Shown: one piece after another, positions 32,274 through 64,000 of the stretch | Layout: every line of letters starts with the position of its first letter | How positions within the stretch are numbered: position 1 is the first letter of the stretch | Origin: Fusobacterium perfoetens | Lineage (GTDB): Bacteria > Fusobacteriota > Fusobacteriia > Fusobacteriales > Fusobacteriaceae | NCBI RefSeq assembly: GCF_021531595.1 | Contig: NZ_JADYUD010000001.1 | Location: 1 to 64,000, forward strand | Direction of reading: 5' to 3' | DNA: 64,000 bases | Position numbers and translations under genes: made by a program | Notes under the pieces: generated by a model | Told to the model about the DNA's origin: nothing | Database searches by the model: none | The model's input: the letters and a program-made list of their open reading frames with translations, nothing else

Positions 32274-32302
32274 TTGAAATATTTTCTCAAATGTGTTATT
32301 CT
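32274..32302 (+). promoter_or_regulatory. promoter of the purine operon
   Basis: TTGAAA (32274-32279), 17-nt spacer and TATTCT (32297-32302), with TG one base upstream of the -10. Predicted transcription start about 32309, 20 nt before the riboswitch. Confidence 0.65.
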
Positions 32303-32328
32303 AAGATTATAAAGACAAATAAATAATC

Positions 32329-32397
32329 GCTTATATAATAGTCGTGATATGGACGACAAGTTTCTACCTGCAAACCTTAAATTAGCAGACTATAAGC
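32329..32397 (+). promoter_or_regulatory. guanine-class purine riboswitch aptamer
   Basis: The aptamer matches the Bacillus xpt guanine riboswitch closely. P1 is GCTTATA/TATAAGC (32329-32335 with 32391-32397). P2 is GTCGT/ACGAC with loop GATATGG (32346-32352). The junction J2/3 reads AAGTTTCTACC, P3 has loop CCTTAAA, and J3/1 reads ACTAT. The specificity base equivalent to position 74 is C (32390), predicting guanine or hypoxanthine rather than adenine. It controls purEKLFMNHD-guaB, which makes IMP and GMP precursors, so guanine should switch transcription off. Confidence 0.93.
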
Positions 32398-32632
32398 ATC
32401 AAAGATATAACTTAGAACTATAATTTGGGAATAATGAATATTATAACTTCGTTGTAGCTGTGTTGCTTCAAGAAAAATTGGGTTAATTTTTCGTTCTTTA
32501 TAATTATGTATAATGAGGAGACAGAGAGACAATGTGTTTTATTTTTAAAAGGAATAAAAGGACATTAAGCAGCAAGTTTAACGAGACAAATTTAATTGGG
32601 TTAATTAATATAGAAAAGAAAAATGAAATTAT
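32398..32632 (+). other. long leader between guanine aptamer and terminator
   Basis: About 235 nt with no good coding frame. It holds two hairpins with the same GGGTT loop: GAAAAATT/AATTTTTC (32472-32492) and TTAATT/AATTAA (32592-32608). Typical guanine riboswitches have their terminator within about 50-100 nt of the aptamer. Extra aptamer, protein site or antiterminator function is possible; I could not match any known riboswitch here. Confidence 0.5.
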
Positions 32633-32694
32633 GCACGCTATGAGTGTGCAGACGGTTTAGTAACGGTCTGCACTTTCGTAGCGTGCTTTTTTTT
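32633..32694 (+). terminator. leader terminator of the purine operon
   Basis: GCACGCTA (32633-32640) pairs with TAGCGTGC (32679-32686), and GTGCAGAC pairs with GTCTGCAC inside it, followed by eight T's. A very strong intrinsic terminator 150 nt before purE; it must be bypassed for operon expression and is the likely output of the guanine riboswitch. Confidence 0.9.
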
Positions 32695-32784
32695 CACATT
32701 TATGGGAGTCAAATAACTAGAAGGAAATTCCAACGACTAATAAATGTGATGAACTGAAATTTTTATTTATTAAAATTTTAGTTC
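32694..32784 (+). other. folded element between leader terminator and purE
   Basis: A perfect 10-bp stem TCACATTTAT/ATAAATGTGA (32694-32703 with 32740-32749) encloses AGTC/GACT (32707-32710 with 32735-32738) and an A-rich internal loop with a small GAA/TTC hairpin. A second hairpin follows (32751-32764 with 32772-32784). Neither has a terminator T-run. The fold recalls a small aptamer, but I cannot assign a class. Confidence 0.5.
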
Positions 32785-32846
32785 GCTTCAAATAAATTAT
32801 ATAAAATTTTTAAAATTAATGAATAAAGTTTTGGAGGGGAAAATAA

Positions 32847-33332
32847 ATGGCAAGAGTTGGAGTTATTATGGGAAGCAGATCAGATCTTCCTACAATGGAA
32901 AATGCTATTGAAATGCTGAAGAGATTTGGAGTTGATTATGAAGTAAAAATTGTATCAGCTCACAGAACACCTGAACTTATGTTTGAGTATGCAAAATCAG
33001 CAAAAGAAAGAGGAATTAAAGTAATAATAGCAGGAGCAGGGGGAGCAGCACATCTTCCAGGAATGGTATCAAGTCTTACACCACTTCCTGTAATAGGAGT
33101 TCCTGTTCAGTCAAAAGCTTTAAGTGGATGGGATTCACTTCTTTCAATAGTTCAAATGCCAGGAGGAATTCCTGTTGGAACTGTAGCAATAGGAAATTCT
33201 GGAGCAAAAAATGCAGGAATACTTGCAAGTGAAATAATAGCTCTTATGGATGAAGAAGTAGCAGCTAAGCTTGAAAAATTTAGAACTGAACAGAGAGATG
33301 AAGTTTTAAGAACAAGTGAGGTTGAGGCATAA
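32847..33332 (+). CDS. purE: N5-carboxyaminoimidazole ribonucleotide mutase PurE
   Basis: A 161-residue class I PurE that moves the carboxyl of N5-CAIR to give CAIR. The N-terminal GSRSDLPTM and the SAHRTP motif (active-site His) and the GGAAHLPGM segment are all present. Paired with PurK downstream this is the two-step bacterial route. GGAGGGG lies upstream. The stop codon overlaps the purK start by one base. Confidence 0.96.
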
Positions 33333-34441
33333 TGCTTATAGAAAAAGGAAAATGGATAGCAGTTCTTGGAGGAGGACAGCTTGGAAAGATGTTATGTGAA
33401 AGTGCTAAGAGACAGGGATATAAGACAATGGTTCTTGAACCTTCAAAAGCAGCTTGTGCAGCTCTTGAGGCAGATTTACATCTTGCTAAACCTTATGATG
33501 ATAAAGAAAGTCTTGTATATATTGCAAAAAATTCAAGTGTAGTAACTTATGAATTTGAAAATGTACCTTCAGAATCTATAGATATATTAGAAGAAAATGG
33601 AGGATATATTCCTCAAGGAAGAAGACCTTTATATATAAGTCAACATAGATTTAGAGAAAAAAGCAGTATAAATAATCTTGGAATAAAAACAGCTGAGTTC
33701 AGAGCAGTTACAGATAAAGAAAGTTTAAAAAAAGCAGTAGAAGAAATTGGTTATCCGTCAATTTTAAAAACTTCTATGGGAGGATATGACGGAAAAGGAC
33801 AATGGGTTCTAAGAAATAAAGAAGATTTTGAAAAAGCTGTTGCTGAACTTTCTGACAGAGAATATATTTTGGAACAAATGGTTGATTTTCAATGTGAACT
33901 TTCATGTATAGCAGTAAAAAGTACAGATGGTTCAGTAGGAGTTTTTCCAGTTGTAGAGAATATTCATAAAAATGGAATACTTCATATAACAATAGCTCCT
34001 GCAAGAATATCTGAAGAAGTTCAGGAAAAAGTAAAAGAGATAACAAAAAAAATTATAGAGGGACTTAATTTTGTAGGACCTCTTGCAATAGAATATTTTT
34101 ATGGAAAAGATGGAGAAATATATGTAAATGAAATGGCTCCAAGACCTCATAACAGTGCTCACTATACAATGGATGGTTGTGATAAATCACAGTTTGACTT
34201 ACAAATAGAGGGTATATGTGGAAAACATCTTGAAGATCCTAAACTTATTAAAAAAAGTGTAATGCTTAATATTTTAGGTCAAGATGTTGAGAGAATAGAA
34301 AAAGCAGAACTTAGGGCTAATGAAAAACTTTATATGTATGGCAAGGGAGAAGCTAAAACTGACAGAAAAATGGGACACCTTAATATAACAGGTGAAAATC
34401 TAGAAGAGCTTATAAAGAGAGCAGAAGAACTTGCTAAATAA
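33332..34441 (+). CDS. purK: N5-carboxyaminoimidazole ribonucleotide synthase PurK
   Basis: A 369-residue ATP-grasp enzyme that carboxylates AIR with bicarbonate and ATP. The N-terminal AVLGGGQLGKML, the ATP-binding LKTSMGGYDGKGQW and the EMAPRPHNSAH motif are diagnostic. Its start overlaps purE's stop by one base (TAATG), so translation is coupled. purL follows 51 nt later. Confidence 0.95.
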   Translation: MLIEKGKWIAVLGGGQLGKMLCESAKRQGYKTMVLEPSKAACAALEADLHLAKPYDDKESLVYIAKNSSVVTYEFENVPSESIDILEENGGYIPQGRRPLYISQHRFREKSSINNLGIKTAEFRAVTDKESLKKAVEEIGYPSILKTSMGGYDGKGQWVLRNKEDFEKAVAELSDREYILEQMVDFQCELSCIAVKSTDGSVGVFPVVENIHKNGILHITIAPARISEEVQEKVKEITKKIIEGLNFVGPLAIEYFYGKDGEIYVNEMAPRPHNSAHYTMDGCDKSQFDLQIEGICGKHLEDPKLIKKSVMLNILGQDVERIEKAELRANEKLYMYGKGEAKTDRKMGHLNITGENLEELIKRAEELAK

Positions 34442-34492: not shown

Positions 34493-37400
34493 ATGAATAA
34501 GAGAATTTTTGTTTCTAAAAAACAAGGATTTCAGGTTGAAGGAAATTCAATATTAAATGAAATCAGAGAAAACTTATATGAGACTGGACTTACAAGAGCA
34601 GAATTATATAATGTTTATGATGTTTTTAACTGTGATGAAGAGGATGTAAAACTTTTGAAAACTAAAGTTTTATCAGAACCTGTAACAGATAATGTCTATG
34701 ATGAAATTGACTTAAATGGAAAAACTTATGTAGCAATAGAAAATCTTCCAGGACAATATGATCAAAGAGCTGACTCAGCAGAACAATGTCTTGCACTTCT
34801 AAATAGTAAAGATAGCGTTACAATAAAAAGTGGAAGAGTAATTATATTTTATGGAGAAGTAAAAGATCTTGATAAAATAAAAAAATACTTAATAAACCCT
34901 GTTGAAACAAGAGAAAAAGATTTAAGCATACTTGAAAATAATGAAGATGTAACAGTTGAACCAGTTCCTGTTCTTGAAGGATTTAGAAAACTTTCAAGAG
35001 AAGAGCTTGAAAAATTTGTAAGTGATAATGGACTTGCAATGACAGCTGATGATTTAGAGCATATTCAAAAATACTTTATAGAAGAAGACAGAGATCCTAC
35101 AGAAACAGAAATAAAAGTTCTTGATACTTATTGGTCAGATCACTGCAGACATACAACTTTTGAAACATTCTTAAAAAGTGTAACAATAGAAAAAGGTGAG
35201 ATGACAGAAGCAATTCAAAGAGCATATGAAAAATATCTTGAACTTAGAAAAGAAGTTCATGGAAATAAAAAACCTATGACTCTTATGGATATGGGAACAC
35301 TTGGTGGAAAATATATGAGAAAAATCGGTAAGCTTGATGATATGGAGATTACTGATGAAATAAATGCTTGTAGCATAGAAGTAGATATTGATGTTGATGG
35401 AAAAACTGAAAGATGGCTTTTAATGTTTAAAAATGAAACTCATAACCATCCAACAGAAATAGAACCTTTCGGAGGAGCAAGTACTTGTATTGGAGGAGCA
35501 ATAAGAGATCCTCTTTCAGGAAGAGCATATGTGTATCAAGCAATGAGAATAACAGGAGCAGGAGATATATGTGAAAAACTTGAGGATACACTTCCTAATA
35601 AACTTCCTCAAGTAAGAATTTCAAAAGGAGCAGCTCATGGATATTCTTCTTATGGAAACCAAATAGGGCTTGCAACAACATTTGTAAGAGAAATATATCA
35701 TAATGGATATAAAGCAAAAAGAATGGAAGTTGGAGCAGTAGTTGGAGCAGTTAAAAAAGAGTATGTTTTAAGAGAAGAACCAAAACCAGGAGATCTTGTA
35801 ATAGTTCTTGGTGGTAAAACAGGAAGAGATGGTGTAGGAGGAGCTACAGGATCATCTAAAGAGCACAATGACTCATCTCTTACTAAATGTTCTTCAGAAG
35901 TTCAAAAAGGTAATGCTCCAATAGAAAGAAAAATTCAAAGAGCTTTCAGAAATCCTGAAGTAACAAAGCTTATTAAAAAATCAAATGACTTTGGTGCTGG
36001 AGGAGTTTCAGTAGCAATTGGAGAACTTGCAAGAGGAATAGAAGTAAACTTAGATATGGTATCAGTAAAATATCTTGGACTTAGTGGAACAGAACTTGCA
36101 ATAAGTGAATCTCAAGAAAGAATGGCAGTTGTTATAGCTCCTGAAAACAGAGAAAAATTTGAAGCATTAATGAAAGAAGAAAATCTTGAAACAAGATTAG
36201 TTGCAAAAGTAACAGAAAAAGAAAATCTAGTAATTAAATTCAGAGGGGAAACAATAGTTGACATAGCAAGAAGTTTCCTTGATACAAATGGAGTAAGACA
36301 AGAACAAGATGTAAAAGTTATTGCTCCAGTTAAAGAAGAAATATTTAAATCAGATAAAACAGGAACTGTTGAAGAAAAACTTACTGCAACATTAAAGGAT
36401 ATGAATGTAGCTTCTCAAAGAGGAATGGTAGAGATGTTTGACTCAACAGTAGGTCGTTCAACAGTGCTTATGCCTTATGGAGGAAAATACCAACTTACAG
36501 AAAGTGAAGGAAGCGTTCAGAAGTTCCCAACACTAGGATTTACAAATACAGCTTCAGTTATGACTTATGGATTTAATCCTTACATTTCTGAAAAATCTCC
36601 ATATCTTGGAGCAATTTATGCAGTAATAGAATCTCTTGCAAGACTTACTGCTGTAGGAGCAGATTATAAAAAAGCAAGACTTACTTTCCAAGAATATTTT
36701 GAAAGACTTGGAAAAGAACCTTCAAGATGGGGAAAACCATTTATGGCACTTCTTGGAGCACTTGAAGCTCAGGTTGAGTTTGAAACTCCTGCTATTGGAG
36801 GAAAAGACAGTATGAGTGGAACATTTAAAAATATAGATGTCCCTCCTACATTGATATCTTTTGCAGTAACAACAGAAAAAACTCAGAATATAGTTTCTTC
36901 TGAATTTAAAGCAGCAGGAAATTATATTTATTTAGTAAAACCTGAATATAATGAAGATTTCACTCCAAAATATGATACAGTGAAAGCAGTATTTGACAAT
37001 GTAAGAAAAGAAATGCTTGCAGGAAATGTAGTATCAGCTTCAGTTGTAAAATTTGGAGGAGTAGCAGAAGCATTAATGAAGATGACATTTGGTAATAAAC
37101 TTGGAATAAATGTTGATACAGATGCAGAATTATTTGATCTTATGCCTGGAGCAATAGTTGTTGAAACTAAGAAAAAATTATCATTTGGAATTCTTTTAGG
37201 AACAGTGGAAGATACAAAAGAAATAAGAATAAACGGAGCAGTAATAAATATAGATAAAGCATTATCTGATTGGGAAGAAAGATATGCAAAAATTTATCCT
37301 TATAATACAAATGCAGAAGATAAAAAAGTATTTACTCCTGTAGAGAAAAAAGGAAATATGAAACAGAAAGCTTCAGTATTATATGATACACCAAAAGTTT

Positions 37401-38185
37401 TAGTTCTTGCATTCCCAGGAACAAACTCAGAATATGATACAGCAAAAGCATTTGAAAGAGCTGGAGGAGCAGCAGAGATATTTGTAATTAATAATCTTAC
37501 AGTTAAAGATATGGAAGCTTCAATAGAGGAGCTTAGCAGAAAAATAAAAGAAGTTCAGATAGTTGCACTTCCTGGAGGATTCAGTGCAGGAGATGAGCCA
37601 GATGGTTCTGGTAAATTTATAACAAATATATTACAAAATCCAAAAGTTAAAGCTGCTATAAAAGAATTTTTAGCAAAAGAAGGATTGATGTTAGGTATTT
37701 GTAATGGATTCCAAGCTTTAATAAAATCAGGACTTTTACCATATGGAGATATGGATAAATTAAATGAAAACTCTCCTACATTATTTAGAAATGACATTAA
37801 CCGTCATATTTCAAGAATTGCTACAACAAGAATAGCTTCTAATTCATCTCCTTGGCTTTCATCTTTTGAAATAGGAGATATGCATTCAATGACACTTTCT
37901 CATGGAGAAGGAAAGTTTGTAGTAAGTGAAGAGTTTGCAAAAGAATTATTTGAAAATGGACAGGTTGCAACTCAATACTGTAACCTTGAAGGAGAACCTA
38001 CAATGGATGGAAAATATAACCTTAATGGTTCATATTATGCTATTGAAGGAATTACATCTAAGGACGGACAAATCCTTGGAAAAATGGGACACTCAGAGCG
38101 TTATGAAGATGGAACATTTAAAAATATTTACGGAGAAAAGATGCAGGATATCTTCCAGAATGGAGTAAACTTCTTTAAAAAATAA
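34493..38185 (+). CDS. purL: phosphoribosylformylglycinamidine synthase, single-chain PurL
   Basis: A 1230-residue FGAM synthase that makes FGAM from FGAR, glutamine and ATP. It holds a PurS-like N-terminal part, two AIR-synthase-like ATP-binding halves (for example HNHPTEIEPFGGASTCIGG) and a C-terminal class I glutaminase (from about residue 965) with nucleophile Cys in GICNGFQ and AFPGTNSEYD. Most Firmicutes use separate PurS, PurQ and small PurL; this fused form avoids the need for purQ and purS, which are absent. GGAGG precedes the ATG. Confidence 0.95.
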   Translation: MNKRIFVSKKQGFQVEGNSILNEIRENLYETGLTRAELYNVYDVFNCDEEDVKLLKTKVLSEPVTDNVYDEIDLNGKTYVAIENLPGQYDQRADSAEQCLALLNSKDSVTIKSGRVIIFYGEVKDLDKIKKYLINPVETREKDLSILENNEDVTVEPVPVLEGFRKLSREELEKFVSDNGLAMTADDLEHIQKYFIEEDRDPTETEIKVLDTYWSDHCRHTTFETFLKSVTIEKGEMTEAIQRAYEKYLELRKEVHGNKKPMTLMDMGTLGGKYMRKIGKLDDMEITDEINACSIEVDIDVDGKTERWLLMFKNETHNHPTEIEPFGGASTCIGGAIRDPLSGRAYVYQAMRITGAGDICEKLEDTLPNKLPQVRISKGAAHGYSSYGNQIGLATTFVREIYHNGYKAKRMEVGAVVGAVKKEYVLREEPKPGDLVIVLGGKTGRDGVGGATGSSKEHNDSSLTKCSSEVQKGNAPIERKIQRAFRNPEVTKLIKKSNDFGAGGVSVAIGELARGIEVNLDMVSVKYLGLSGTELAISESQERMAVVIAPENREKFEALMKEENLETRLVAKVTEKENLVIKFRGETIVDIARSFLDTNGVRQEQDVKVIAPVKEEIFKSDKTGTVEEKLTATLKDMNVASQRGMVEMFDSTVGRSTVLMPYGGKYQLTESEGSVQKFPTLGFTNTASVMTYGFNPYISEKSPYLGAIYAVIESLARLTAVGADYKKARLTFQEYFERLGKEPSRWGKPFMALLGALEAQVEFETPAIGGKDSMSGTFKNIDVPPTLISFAVTTEKTQNIVSSEFKAAGNYIYLVKPEYNEDFTPKYDTVKAVFDNVRKEMLAGNVVSASVVKFGGVAEALMKMTFGNKLGINVDTDAELFDLMPGAIVVETKKKLSFGILLGTVEDTKEIRINGAVINIDKALSDWEERYAKIYPYNTNAEDKKVFTPVEKKGNMKQKASVLYDTPKVLVLAFPGTNSEYDTAKAFERAGGAAEIFVINNLTVKDMEASIEELSRKIKEVQIVALPGGFSAGDEPDGSGKFITNILQNPKVKAAIKEFLAKEGLMLGICNGFQALIKSGLLPYGDMDKLNENSPTLFRNDINRHISRIATTRIASNSSPWLSSFEIGDMHSMTLSHGEGKFVVSEEFAKELFENGQVATQYCNLEGEPTMDGKYNLNGSYYAIEGITSKDGQILGKMGHSERYEDGTFKNIYGEKMQDIFQNGVNFFKK

Positions 38186-63250: not shown

Positions 63251-63264
63251 ACAGTATAAAATGA

Positions 63265-63335
63265 ATATGGGTAAAATAATGGAAACATTATGACACAAAG
63301 CTAAAGGGTCTTTAAAATGACAGCCAGCTGCAGTT
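63265..63335 (+). promoter_or_regulatory. c-di-GMP-I-like (GEMM) riboswitch, copy 1
   Basis: The core order matches GEMM: a GGTAAA entry (63270-63275), the hairpin ATAATG-GAAA-CATTAT with GNRA loop (63276-63291), GACACAAAGC (consensus GACGCAAAGC, one change), AGGGTCT, then TGACAGCCAG and CTGC. The G aligned to Vc2 position 20, which contacts c-di-GMP, is kept. The closing P1 helix is weak: only about three pairs are visible. The 3' end overlaps the left arm of a terminator, the usual design of a transcriptional switch. Confidence 0.75.
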
Positions 63336-63374
63336 TAAAAAAGAGTAAAGTCTTTTTAAATTGCAGCTTTTTTT
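63326..63374 (+). terminator. terminator of riboswitch copy 1
   Basis: AGCTGCAGTTTAAAAA (63326-63341) pairs with TTTTTAAATTGCAGCT (63353-63368; one G-U), followed by T's to 63374. Its left arm uses the last bases of the aptamer, so folding of aptamer and terminator should compete: ligand binding would favour read-through. Confidence 0.8.
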
Positions 63375-63409
63375 ATTTTAAAATTATGATTTTTTATGAA
63401 GGAGATAAA

Positions 63410-63835
63410 ATGAAAAAAAATTTAATGAAAATGATATTTGTCTTATGTGTTGGATTATTTATAATGGGCTGCACTAATACTCAATCAGGAGGAAATAATC
63501 TTGGAAGTCTTAATAGAGCTTATAATAATGCTAATGGAACAACAAACAGATCTATGATAGTTGATACAGTAATTGCAACAACTTTATATAATCACCCTGA
63601 ACTTATTCCAGGAATTGGAGTAAGCAAAACAAAATCTCACACTAAAGGACACAGTAAAACAGTATCAAATACAACTGGAGGCACTCAATCTTTTATTGCA
63701 GACAGAGGATTTGGTACAAGCAGTATGACAAATACTCACAGTATAACTACAACTCAGACACATAGCAAATCAAGAACGAAATCAACATCAGCGGGAATAG
63801 GAATATCTCCCAACCTAGATTTCTTTTTAAAATAA
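63410..63835 (+). CDS. putative lipoprotein under riboswitch control
   Basis: A 141-residue protein with a lipoprotein signal (basic start, hydrophobic core, FIMGC with Cys21). The mature part is rich in Ser, Thr, Lys, His and Asn, with repeated SHTKGHSKT- and THSKSRTKS-like pieces between about residues 85 and 130. I know no domain match. ATG 63410 has AAGGAG upstream; the longer frame from 63317 is only riboswitch sequence read as protein. A c-di-GMP-controlled surface or matrix-linked lipoprotein is a reasonable guess from context. Confidence 0.75.
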   Translation: MKKNLMKMIFVLCVGLFIMGCTNTQSGGNNLGSLNRAYNNANGTTNRSMIVDTVIATTLYNHPELIPGIGVSKTKSHTKGHSKTVSNTTGGTQSFIADRGFGTSSMTNTHSITTTQTHSKSRTKSTSAGIGISPNLDFFLK

Positions 63836-63839
63836 AATA

Positions 63840-63905
63840 GGTAAAATAATGGAAACATTATGACACAAAGCTAAAGGGTCTTTAAAATGACAGCCAGCTG
63901 CAGTT
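63840..63905 (+). promoter_or_regulatory. c-di-GMP-I-like (GEMM) riboswitch, copy 2
   Basis: Bases 63840-63912 are identical to 63270-63342, so the same aptamer core is repeated 570 bp downstream, beginning 5 nt after the lipoprotein stop codon. No separate promoter is visible before it, so it probably acts within a transcript that already passed copy 1. The base before the GG is A here and G in copy 1. Confidence 0.75.
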
Positions 63906-63943
63906 TAAAAAAAAGTAGAATCTTTTTAAATTGCAGCTTTTTT
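63896..63943 (+). terminator. terminator of riboswitch copy 2
   Basis: AGCTGCAGTTTAAAAA (63896-63911) pairs with TTTTTAAATTGCAGCT (63923-63938), followed by T's. The loop differs from copy 1 in a few bases while both arms are the same. Confidence 0.8.
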
Positions 63944-63982
63944 ATTAAAAAAATAAATATTATTAAGGAGTGATAAAAAATT

Positions 63983-64000
63983 ATGAAAAAAATATTATTA
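63983..64000 (+). CDS. start of a further gene, cut by the window edge
   Basis: ATG 63983 with AAGGAG 12 nt upstream opens a frame reading MKKILL up to the window end. The start looks like an exported protein or lipoprotein signal. It is the gene controlled by riboswitch copy 2; its identity cannot be told from six codons. Confidence 0.6.

Follow-up and report, generated by a model that had tools for sequence, protein, structure and literature searches.

A small leader ORF lies between a guanine riboswitch aptamer and the distant terminator of the purEKL operon in Fusobacterium perfoetens

The genes purE, purK and purL (FGAM synthase) of Fusobacterium perfoetens follow one another on the forward strand of the 64,000-nucleotide stretch analysed here (the window), behind a long leader that carries a purine riboswitch aptamer and an intrinsic terminator (Table 1). 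The aptamer has the three-way junction and conserved core of RF00167, its P1 strands are 32329-32335 and 32391-32397, and the guanine-specifying C, read from the sequence, stands just before the P1 3′ strand (GCAGAC, then UAUAAGC). An earlier note on this DNA had called it a near-textbook guanine aptamer, and both the family score and the C at the specificity position bear this out: by sequence it is an ordinary, canonical member of the class. Sequences resembling TTGAAA...TATTCT, the likely promoter, also occur 5′ of the aptamer in relatives.

Table 1. The purE leader and downstream genes in the window
Feature	Position	Strand	Basis or detail
Likely promoter, TTGAAA-17-TATTCT with TG before the -10	32274..32302	+	Consensus scan
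Guanine-class purine riboswitch aptamer	32311..32412	+	RF00167, 81 bits against a gathering score of 37, E 6e-13
P1 3′ strand and flank, predicted ligand-free partner of the switch strand	32394..32411	+	Minimum-energy fold of truncated transcripts, P1 excluded
Switch strand, predicted to pair with 32394-32411 or with the leader-ORF SD and start codon	32450..32470	+	Folding
Local hairpin GAAAAATTG...TAATTTTTC, predicted to bring the switch strand near the SD	32472..32492	+	Folding
Shine-Dalgarno (SD) AGGAG of the leader ORF	32516..32520	+	Sequence; SDs at the same place in relatives
Leader ORF, 42 codons, MCFIFKRNKRTLSSKFNETNLIGLINIEKKNEIMHAMSVQTV	32532..32660	+	ATG 32532, stop TAG 32658-32660
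Intrinsic terminator, hairpin 32633-32686 and T tract 32687-32694 (eight T)	32633..32694	+	About -38 kcal/mol
AGTGTG motif in leader-ORF terminators of several lineages	32643..32648	+	11 of 21 lineages
purE	32847..33332	+	TIGR01162, 229 bits
purK	33332..34441	+	NF004675, 438 bits
purL (FGAM synthase)	34493..38185	+	TIGR01857, 1815 bits

In the guanine riboswitch of the Bacillus subtilis type, P1 and an antiterminator adjacent to the terminator are in direct competition. The leader described here shares the aptamer class and, in the model proposed below, the OFF logic, whereas its terminator is not proximal but lies behind an ORF. The only strong terminator hairpin of the leader begins at 32633, which is 235 nt past the end of P1 at 32397, as the earlier note had measured. 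No partner for the P1 3′ strand was found near the terminator (32633-32694), so that the antiterminator of the classic design is missing. The note had likewise remarked that the normal direct switch is not apparent, and this holds: the competing partner of the P1 3′ strand, at 32451-32468, sits upstream of the ribosome-binding site of the leader ORF and not at the terminator. Direct control of the distal terminator by some long-range fold, in which case the ORF would have arisen by chance from A-rich sequence, therefore appears most improbable. An extended leader structure can be drawn, since the fold of 32309-32846 that the note had proposed reaches -121 kcal/mol (z -4.8), largely from the terminator and local hairpins. 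Besides the absent P1 partner, what argues against such a fold is that many lineages have an ORF with its stop in the hairpin, an arrangement that control leaders almost never show.

The aptamer and the terminator could have been separate units, as would follow from a promoter or terminator in 32398-32632. A consensus scan of this interval found no sigma-70-like promoter on the + strand, a terminator scan found no other terminator before 32633, and aptamer, ORF and terminator occur together in relatives; we thus reject a separation. A guanine-PRPP tandem riboswitch has been reported in Firmicutes (PMC5912903), where a guanine aptamer and a second element precede one terminator of purine synthesis genes, as here. 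Unlike here, that second element is itself an aptamer. In the gap between aptamer and terminator no convincing match to another RNA family was found, even at E values up to 10. This agrees with the note's statement that the boxes of ykkC/PRPP (ykkC 2b) are absent, and it rules out PRPP or another known RNA as the gap element. The suspicion of an intermediate element was nevertheless right in part. There is one, and it is not a second aptamer but a leader ORF that ends inside the terminator.

This 42-codon ORF, which at 42 amino acids is shorter than the 50-aa cut-off of the ORF search and did not figure in the earlier note, occupies the gap, and a small, probably translated ORF filling the linker would explain why the aptamer lies so far from the terminator. 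Its stop codon sits in the loop of the terminator hairpin, giving the arrangement expected of a leader-ORF attenuator: an SD-led ORF overlapping an intrinsic terminator before a gene. The SD-AUG spacing is long, at 11 nt. The frame is open, while the other two frames have 4 and 5 stops before the hairpin. When the linker was permuted with the terminator kept intact, any SD-led ORF that ended in the hairpin arose with a probability of 0.021 for the window and of 0.005-0.033 over 13 representative leaders, twelve of them other than that of the window. Combined by Fisher's method over five deep lineages (L002, L012, L013, L071 and L024), so that related leaders are not counted as independent and with omission of L009, which fails the SD rule, the chance is about 2e-6. 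Among 30 terminators in the 64-kb window (in-house finder, cut-off -12 kcal/mol or lower), only that of purE has an SD-led ORF ending inside it and a gene after it. Taken together, a functional leader ORF is well supported by these comparisons, and it is probably translated. The sequence AATTGGGTTAATT is present twice, in the hairpin before the SD (32476-32488) and inside the leader ORF (32594-32606).

Comparison of purE leaders from relatives, which the earlier note had suggested, shows that the order of aptamer, SD, ORF and terminator recurs. Across the Fusobacteriales, an SD-led ORF ends inside a distal terminator in 35 of 44 guanine-aptamer leaders of purE, purL, fhs or purM and in 2 of 54 leaders of other genes, where gene classes were set by simple sequence patterns and the layout was scored by an automated rule. 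The Fisher p of 8e-16 is calculated before allowing for relatedness and overstates independence, because the leaders are related. The two matches among other genes (L001 and L044) were judged spurious. Within the same genus, the purE leaders L005-L009 show the layout, and L010 has an ORF that continues through the terminator. The layout is shared by purE leaders from g2, g4 and g10 and by the purM leaders of two sister species (L113 and L114, the ORF of L113 running through). It is also seen in fhs leaders of g13 and an f4 genus (L211, L214, L216, L222-L227), purM and fhs being named here from translated sequence and not by family search, and in purL leaders of g8 and several f4 genera (L110, L111, L206, L207, L209, L213, L228). 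It thus spans at least two families and four kinds of operon; one exception, L011, has a proximal terminator only.

We propose a model where this is a guanine riboswitch whose output runs through the leader ORF, guanine being an OFF signal that the ribosome would carry over the 235 nt, and we give it a probability of roughly 0.6. Without guanine, the P1 3′ strand would hold the switch strand (32450-32470) and the leader ORF would be translated. The ribosome would then enter the 5′ arm of the terminator and block its folding, allowing purEKL to be transcribed; when positioned on the stop codon or close to it, a ribosome would sit over both the 5′ arm and the loop of the hairpin. With guanine bound, P1 would keep its own 3′ strand and the switch strand would close the SD and AUG. 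No ribosome would follow RNA polymerase, the terminator would fold and transcription would stop.

That translation of the leader ORF prevents termination is likely. In E. coli, a translating ribosome almost completely represses an intrinsic terminator placed just after the stop codon, and a terminator placed less than 100 bp into an ORF usually remains active, as the ribosome rarely catches RNA polymerase unless there is a pause (PMC4824070). The distance from the leader-ORF start to the hairpin is 101 nt, and a pause is therefore probably needed for the ribosome to catch up. A candidate pause site is AGTGTG, which occurs in leader-ORF terminators of 11 of 21 lineages, where 1.4 would be expected, and is missing from all 53 control leader terminators. 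It is not a genome-wide repeat, as related 7-mers are not over-represented in the 64-kb window. In several f4 purL leaders (L206, L207, L231, L232 and L251), the ORFs share a small mid-ORF hairpin, AGACAA...UUGUCUACUUUGUU (AGACAA...UUGUCU), which encodes a peptide like RQIxxLSTLL and possibly serves as a pause hairpin.

The gating step, in which guanine controls translation of the leader ORF in the window itself, is our best model at somewhat better than even odds. On the P1 3′ side, AAGCA can pair with TGCTT (32464-32468) and TATAAC with GTTGTA (32451-32456). Both CAAAGATATAA, of the P1 3′ flank region, and GTTGCTT, of the switch strand, are conserved in L009 and L010, and the local hairpin before the SD has the counterpart AATGATTGGTGTAATCATT in relatives. 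With P1 excluded, pairing of the switch strand with the P1 3′ side is nearly isoenergetic with the ligand-free aptamer (-24.2 against -23.6 kcal/mol, transcript end 32480). With the aptamer enforced, the switch strand instead pairs with the SD and AUG (CTTCA with TGAGG, TGTT with GACA, CGTTGT with ACAATG). Opening the SD and AUG is 2.2 kcal/mol costlier in the aptamer state, and 12% of shuffles give a difference as large or larger. P1 was forbidden by an energy penalty and these are equilibrium folds, whereas such a switch would act during transcription. Even in the alternative state the SD is predicted to be mostly paired, so that a kinetic, co-transcriptional switch must be assumed. Folding support for gating in the window is moderate.

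Several relatives show larger predicted effects. The difference in opening cost is 4.7 kcal/mol in L113, 5.5 in L114 and 2.9 in L005 and L006, and it is 2.7-7.8 kcal/mol in nine of ten fhs and g8 purL leaders, with 1.1 in L224. The gating pairing is stronger than in the window in L005, L110, L113, L114, L222, L223 and L226; little gating is predicted in L007, L008 and L009, and none in L209. Of the 20 leaders that have no proximal terminator, 19 are predicted to need more energy for opening the SD and AUG when the aptamer is formed than when the alternative helix is (3-8 kcal/mol more in half), and 15 show a difference in the top 12% of shuffled linkers. Predicted gating does not differ between leaders with and without a proximal terminator (Mann-Whitney p 0.21). 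A restriction of gating to leaders that lack one seemed true for f4 and failed once g4 was included; as g4 leaders with a proximal terminator show predicted gating, the two are not mutually exclusive. The design appears to recur with different sequences. In L113 and L114 the P1 3′ flank AAGCAAAAGAAUACAAU resembles the SD-AUG stretch AAAGGAGAUAAAUACAAUG, so that one strand can pair with either, and use of the P1 3′ flank is likewise predicted for the window; in L005-L008 it is the P1 5′ strand that pairs with the anti-SD strand. In the g4 purE leaders L013, L015, L063 and L067, GGUCAAC of the aptamer P2 3′ strand is complementary to the SD-closing strand GUUGACC, and the folded aptamer in g4 may therefore also lock the second module.

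The ORF-terminator unit is, from its distribution, modular: it stands behind an aptamer, behind a riboswitch terminator, or alone. In g2, g4, g10 and some f4 leaders, an ordinary proximal terminator follows the aptamer and the ORF-terminator unit comes second. One f4 genus yielded no RF00167 match across 13 genomes searched. Its aptamer-less purL leaders L238-L240 have a promoter, an SD and an ORF with its stop in the terminator region, in L250 and L251 the ORF runs through the terminator, and other leaders of this genus lack the ORF or (L241) have the stop before the hairpin.

This modularity is what would be expected of two devices in series, in which the ORF and terminator work as an independent attenuator and the aptamer is separate and does not gate the ORF. 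Such an attenuator would respond to translation or, like pyrBI, would read the supply of purine nucleotides from pauses of RNA polymerase. The units that keep SD, ORF and terminator with no aptamer (L238-L240, L250, L251), and the aptamers with their own proximal terminators, speak for two devices in series. So does the want of predicted gating in L206, L207, L213 and L012. Two indirect points fit as well: AGTGTG, enriched in these terminators, holds two U-G steps as found at pauses, and leader ORFs are A-rich, with 50% A against 40% in gene starts. On the other side, a convincing second expression platform through which the aptamer could act is lacking in the window's genus, in g8 and in most fhs leaders, and the majority of these show predicted gating. 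We regard two devices in series as a serious alternative, with perhaps one chance in four of being right.

Two further readings fare far worse. The genome's other two purine aptamers (L001 and L003, on other contigs) lie upstream of purine permease-like genes without an intervening terminator, and so are probably translational switches. By analogy, the purE terminator might be constitutive and unregulated and the aptamer might control purE translation. Between P1 and the start of purE, however, there are 450 nt and a strong terminator, and no pairing of the aptamer with the purE site is predicted, although the purE site was not searched systematically; we hold this very unlikely. Alternatively, the leader ORF might be an amino-acid attenuator or an arrest peptide sensing a pathway substrate, for which leader ORFs ending near or inside terminators are classic. 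Yet the leader peptides are unrelated between genera, Gln, Gly and Asp are not enriched, and the enrichment of Lys and Asn fits A-richness. We rejected amino-acid attenuation for want of a suitable codon enrichment, and set aside the sensing of fMet or 10-formyl-THF, whose sign would be wrong for fhs. A leader ORF that is an amino-acid attenuator or an arrest peptide has, to our mind, the smallest chance of all.

In pyrBI attenuation of enterobacteria, the leader ORF extends into an intrinsic terminator, which cannot act while a ribosome occupies that point; UTP is sensed through pausing, without an aptamer. The present leader shares the ORF running into a terminator and differs by the guanine aptamer upstream, nucleotide sensing being only putative here. 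PMC4824070 refers to pausing within the pyrBI leader. It is tempting to speculate that the ORF-terminator unit is a purine counterpart of pyrBI attenuation across purine and one-carbon genes of the Fusobacteriales. RNA polymerase slowed at U-G steps (AGUGUG) when GTP or ATP is low would let the ribosome reach the terminator, and guanine aptamers would have been added upstream, in the window's genus gating the leader ORF, to give two-input control by nucleobase and nucleotide. We consider this wider scheme rather unlikely as it stands.

The closest precedents appear to be pyrBI-type attenuation and an Mbox riboswitch of Mycobacterium tuberculosis pe20 that controls a uORF, with Rho-dependent termination (PMC12810186). 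There, as proposed here, access to the ribosome-binding site of a short upstream ORF is set by a riboswitch, and the OFF state brings early termination of transcription, but the aptamer senses Mg2+, termination requires Rho and not an intrinsic terminator, and no stop codon lies inside a terminator hairpin. The M. tuberculosis ppe2 leader, a B12 riboswitch with a translated leader (PMC11260477), similarly has riboswitch-controlled uORF translation on which downstream expression depends; it differs in its ligand and in working by translation termination-reinitiation. In the Streptococcus fthC motif (uORFC-39-1), a candidate uORF with an SD and an in-frame stop, often in a hairpin, is followed by an intrinsic terminator and a one-carbon gene (PMC11109978). 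That motif resembles the present layout but has no riboswitch and belongs to other genes and another phylum. In a literature search that covered few subscription papers, and is thus weak evidence, we found no report of an aptamer, for guanine or any other ligand, that gates a leader ORF whose end lies within an intrinsic terminator; nor, within the same scope, did we find such an ORF-terminator unit described on purine operons.

If our model is right, a riboswitch signals to an intrinsic terminator via the ribosome on a dedicated leader ORF, in a design tied to biosynthesis and not to transport, and this would account for some guanine aptamers having no usable terminator nearby. Leader ORFs hidden in seemingly empty riboswitch linkers may then be the real expression platform. 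The natural sets of leaders with aptamer and ORF, with the ORF alone, or with two terminators are suited to tests of transcription-translation coupling in a phylum where such coupling is little studied.

Some further features were seen along the way. About 150 nt separate the terminator from purE, and this stretch (32695-32800) holds two further hairpins, CACATTTAT...ATAAATGTG and GAACTGAAATTTT...AAAATTTTAGTTC, which are not seen in the shorter leaders of relatives; it is single-copy in this genome, which excludes an inserted repeat. Some genomes of the family (G028, G032, G065, G010 and others) carry 13-17 purine aptamers, many before transporters. Near the end of the window, two c-di-GMP-I aptamers (63259-63420 and 63829-63990) lie within a 162-nt direct repeat, 85% identical and spaced 570 nt, and between them is a 172-aa ORF (63317-63835) with a lipoprotein-like signal.
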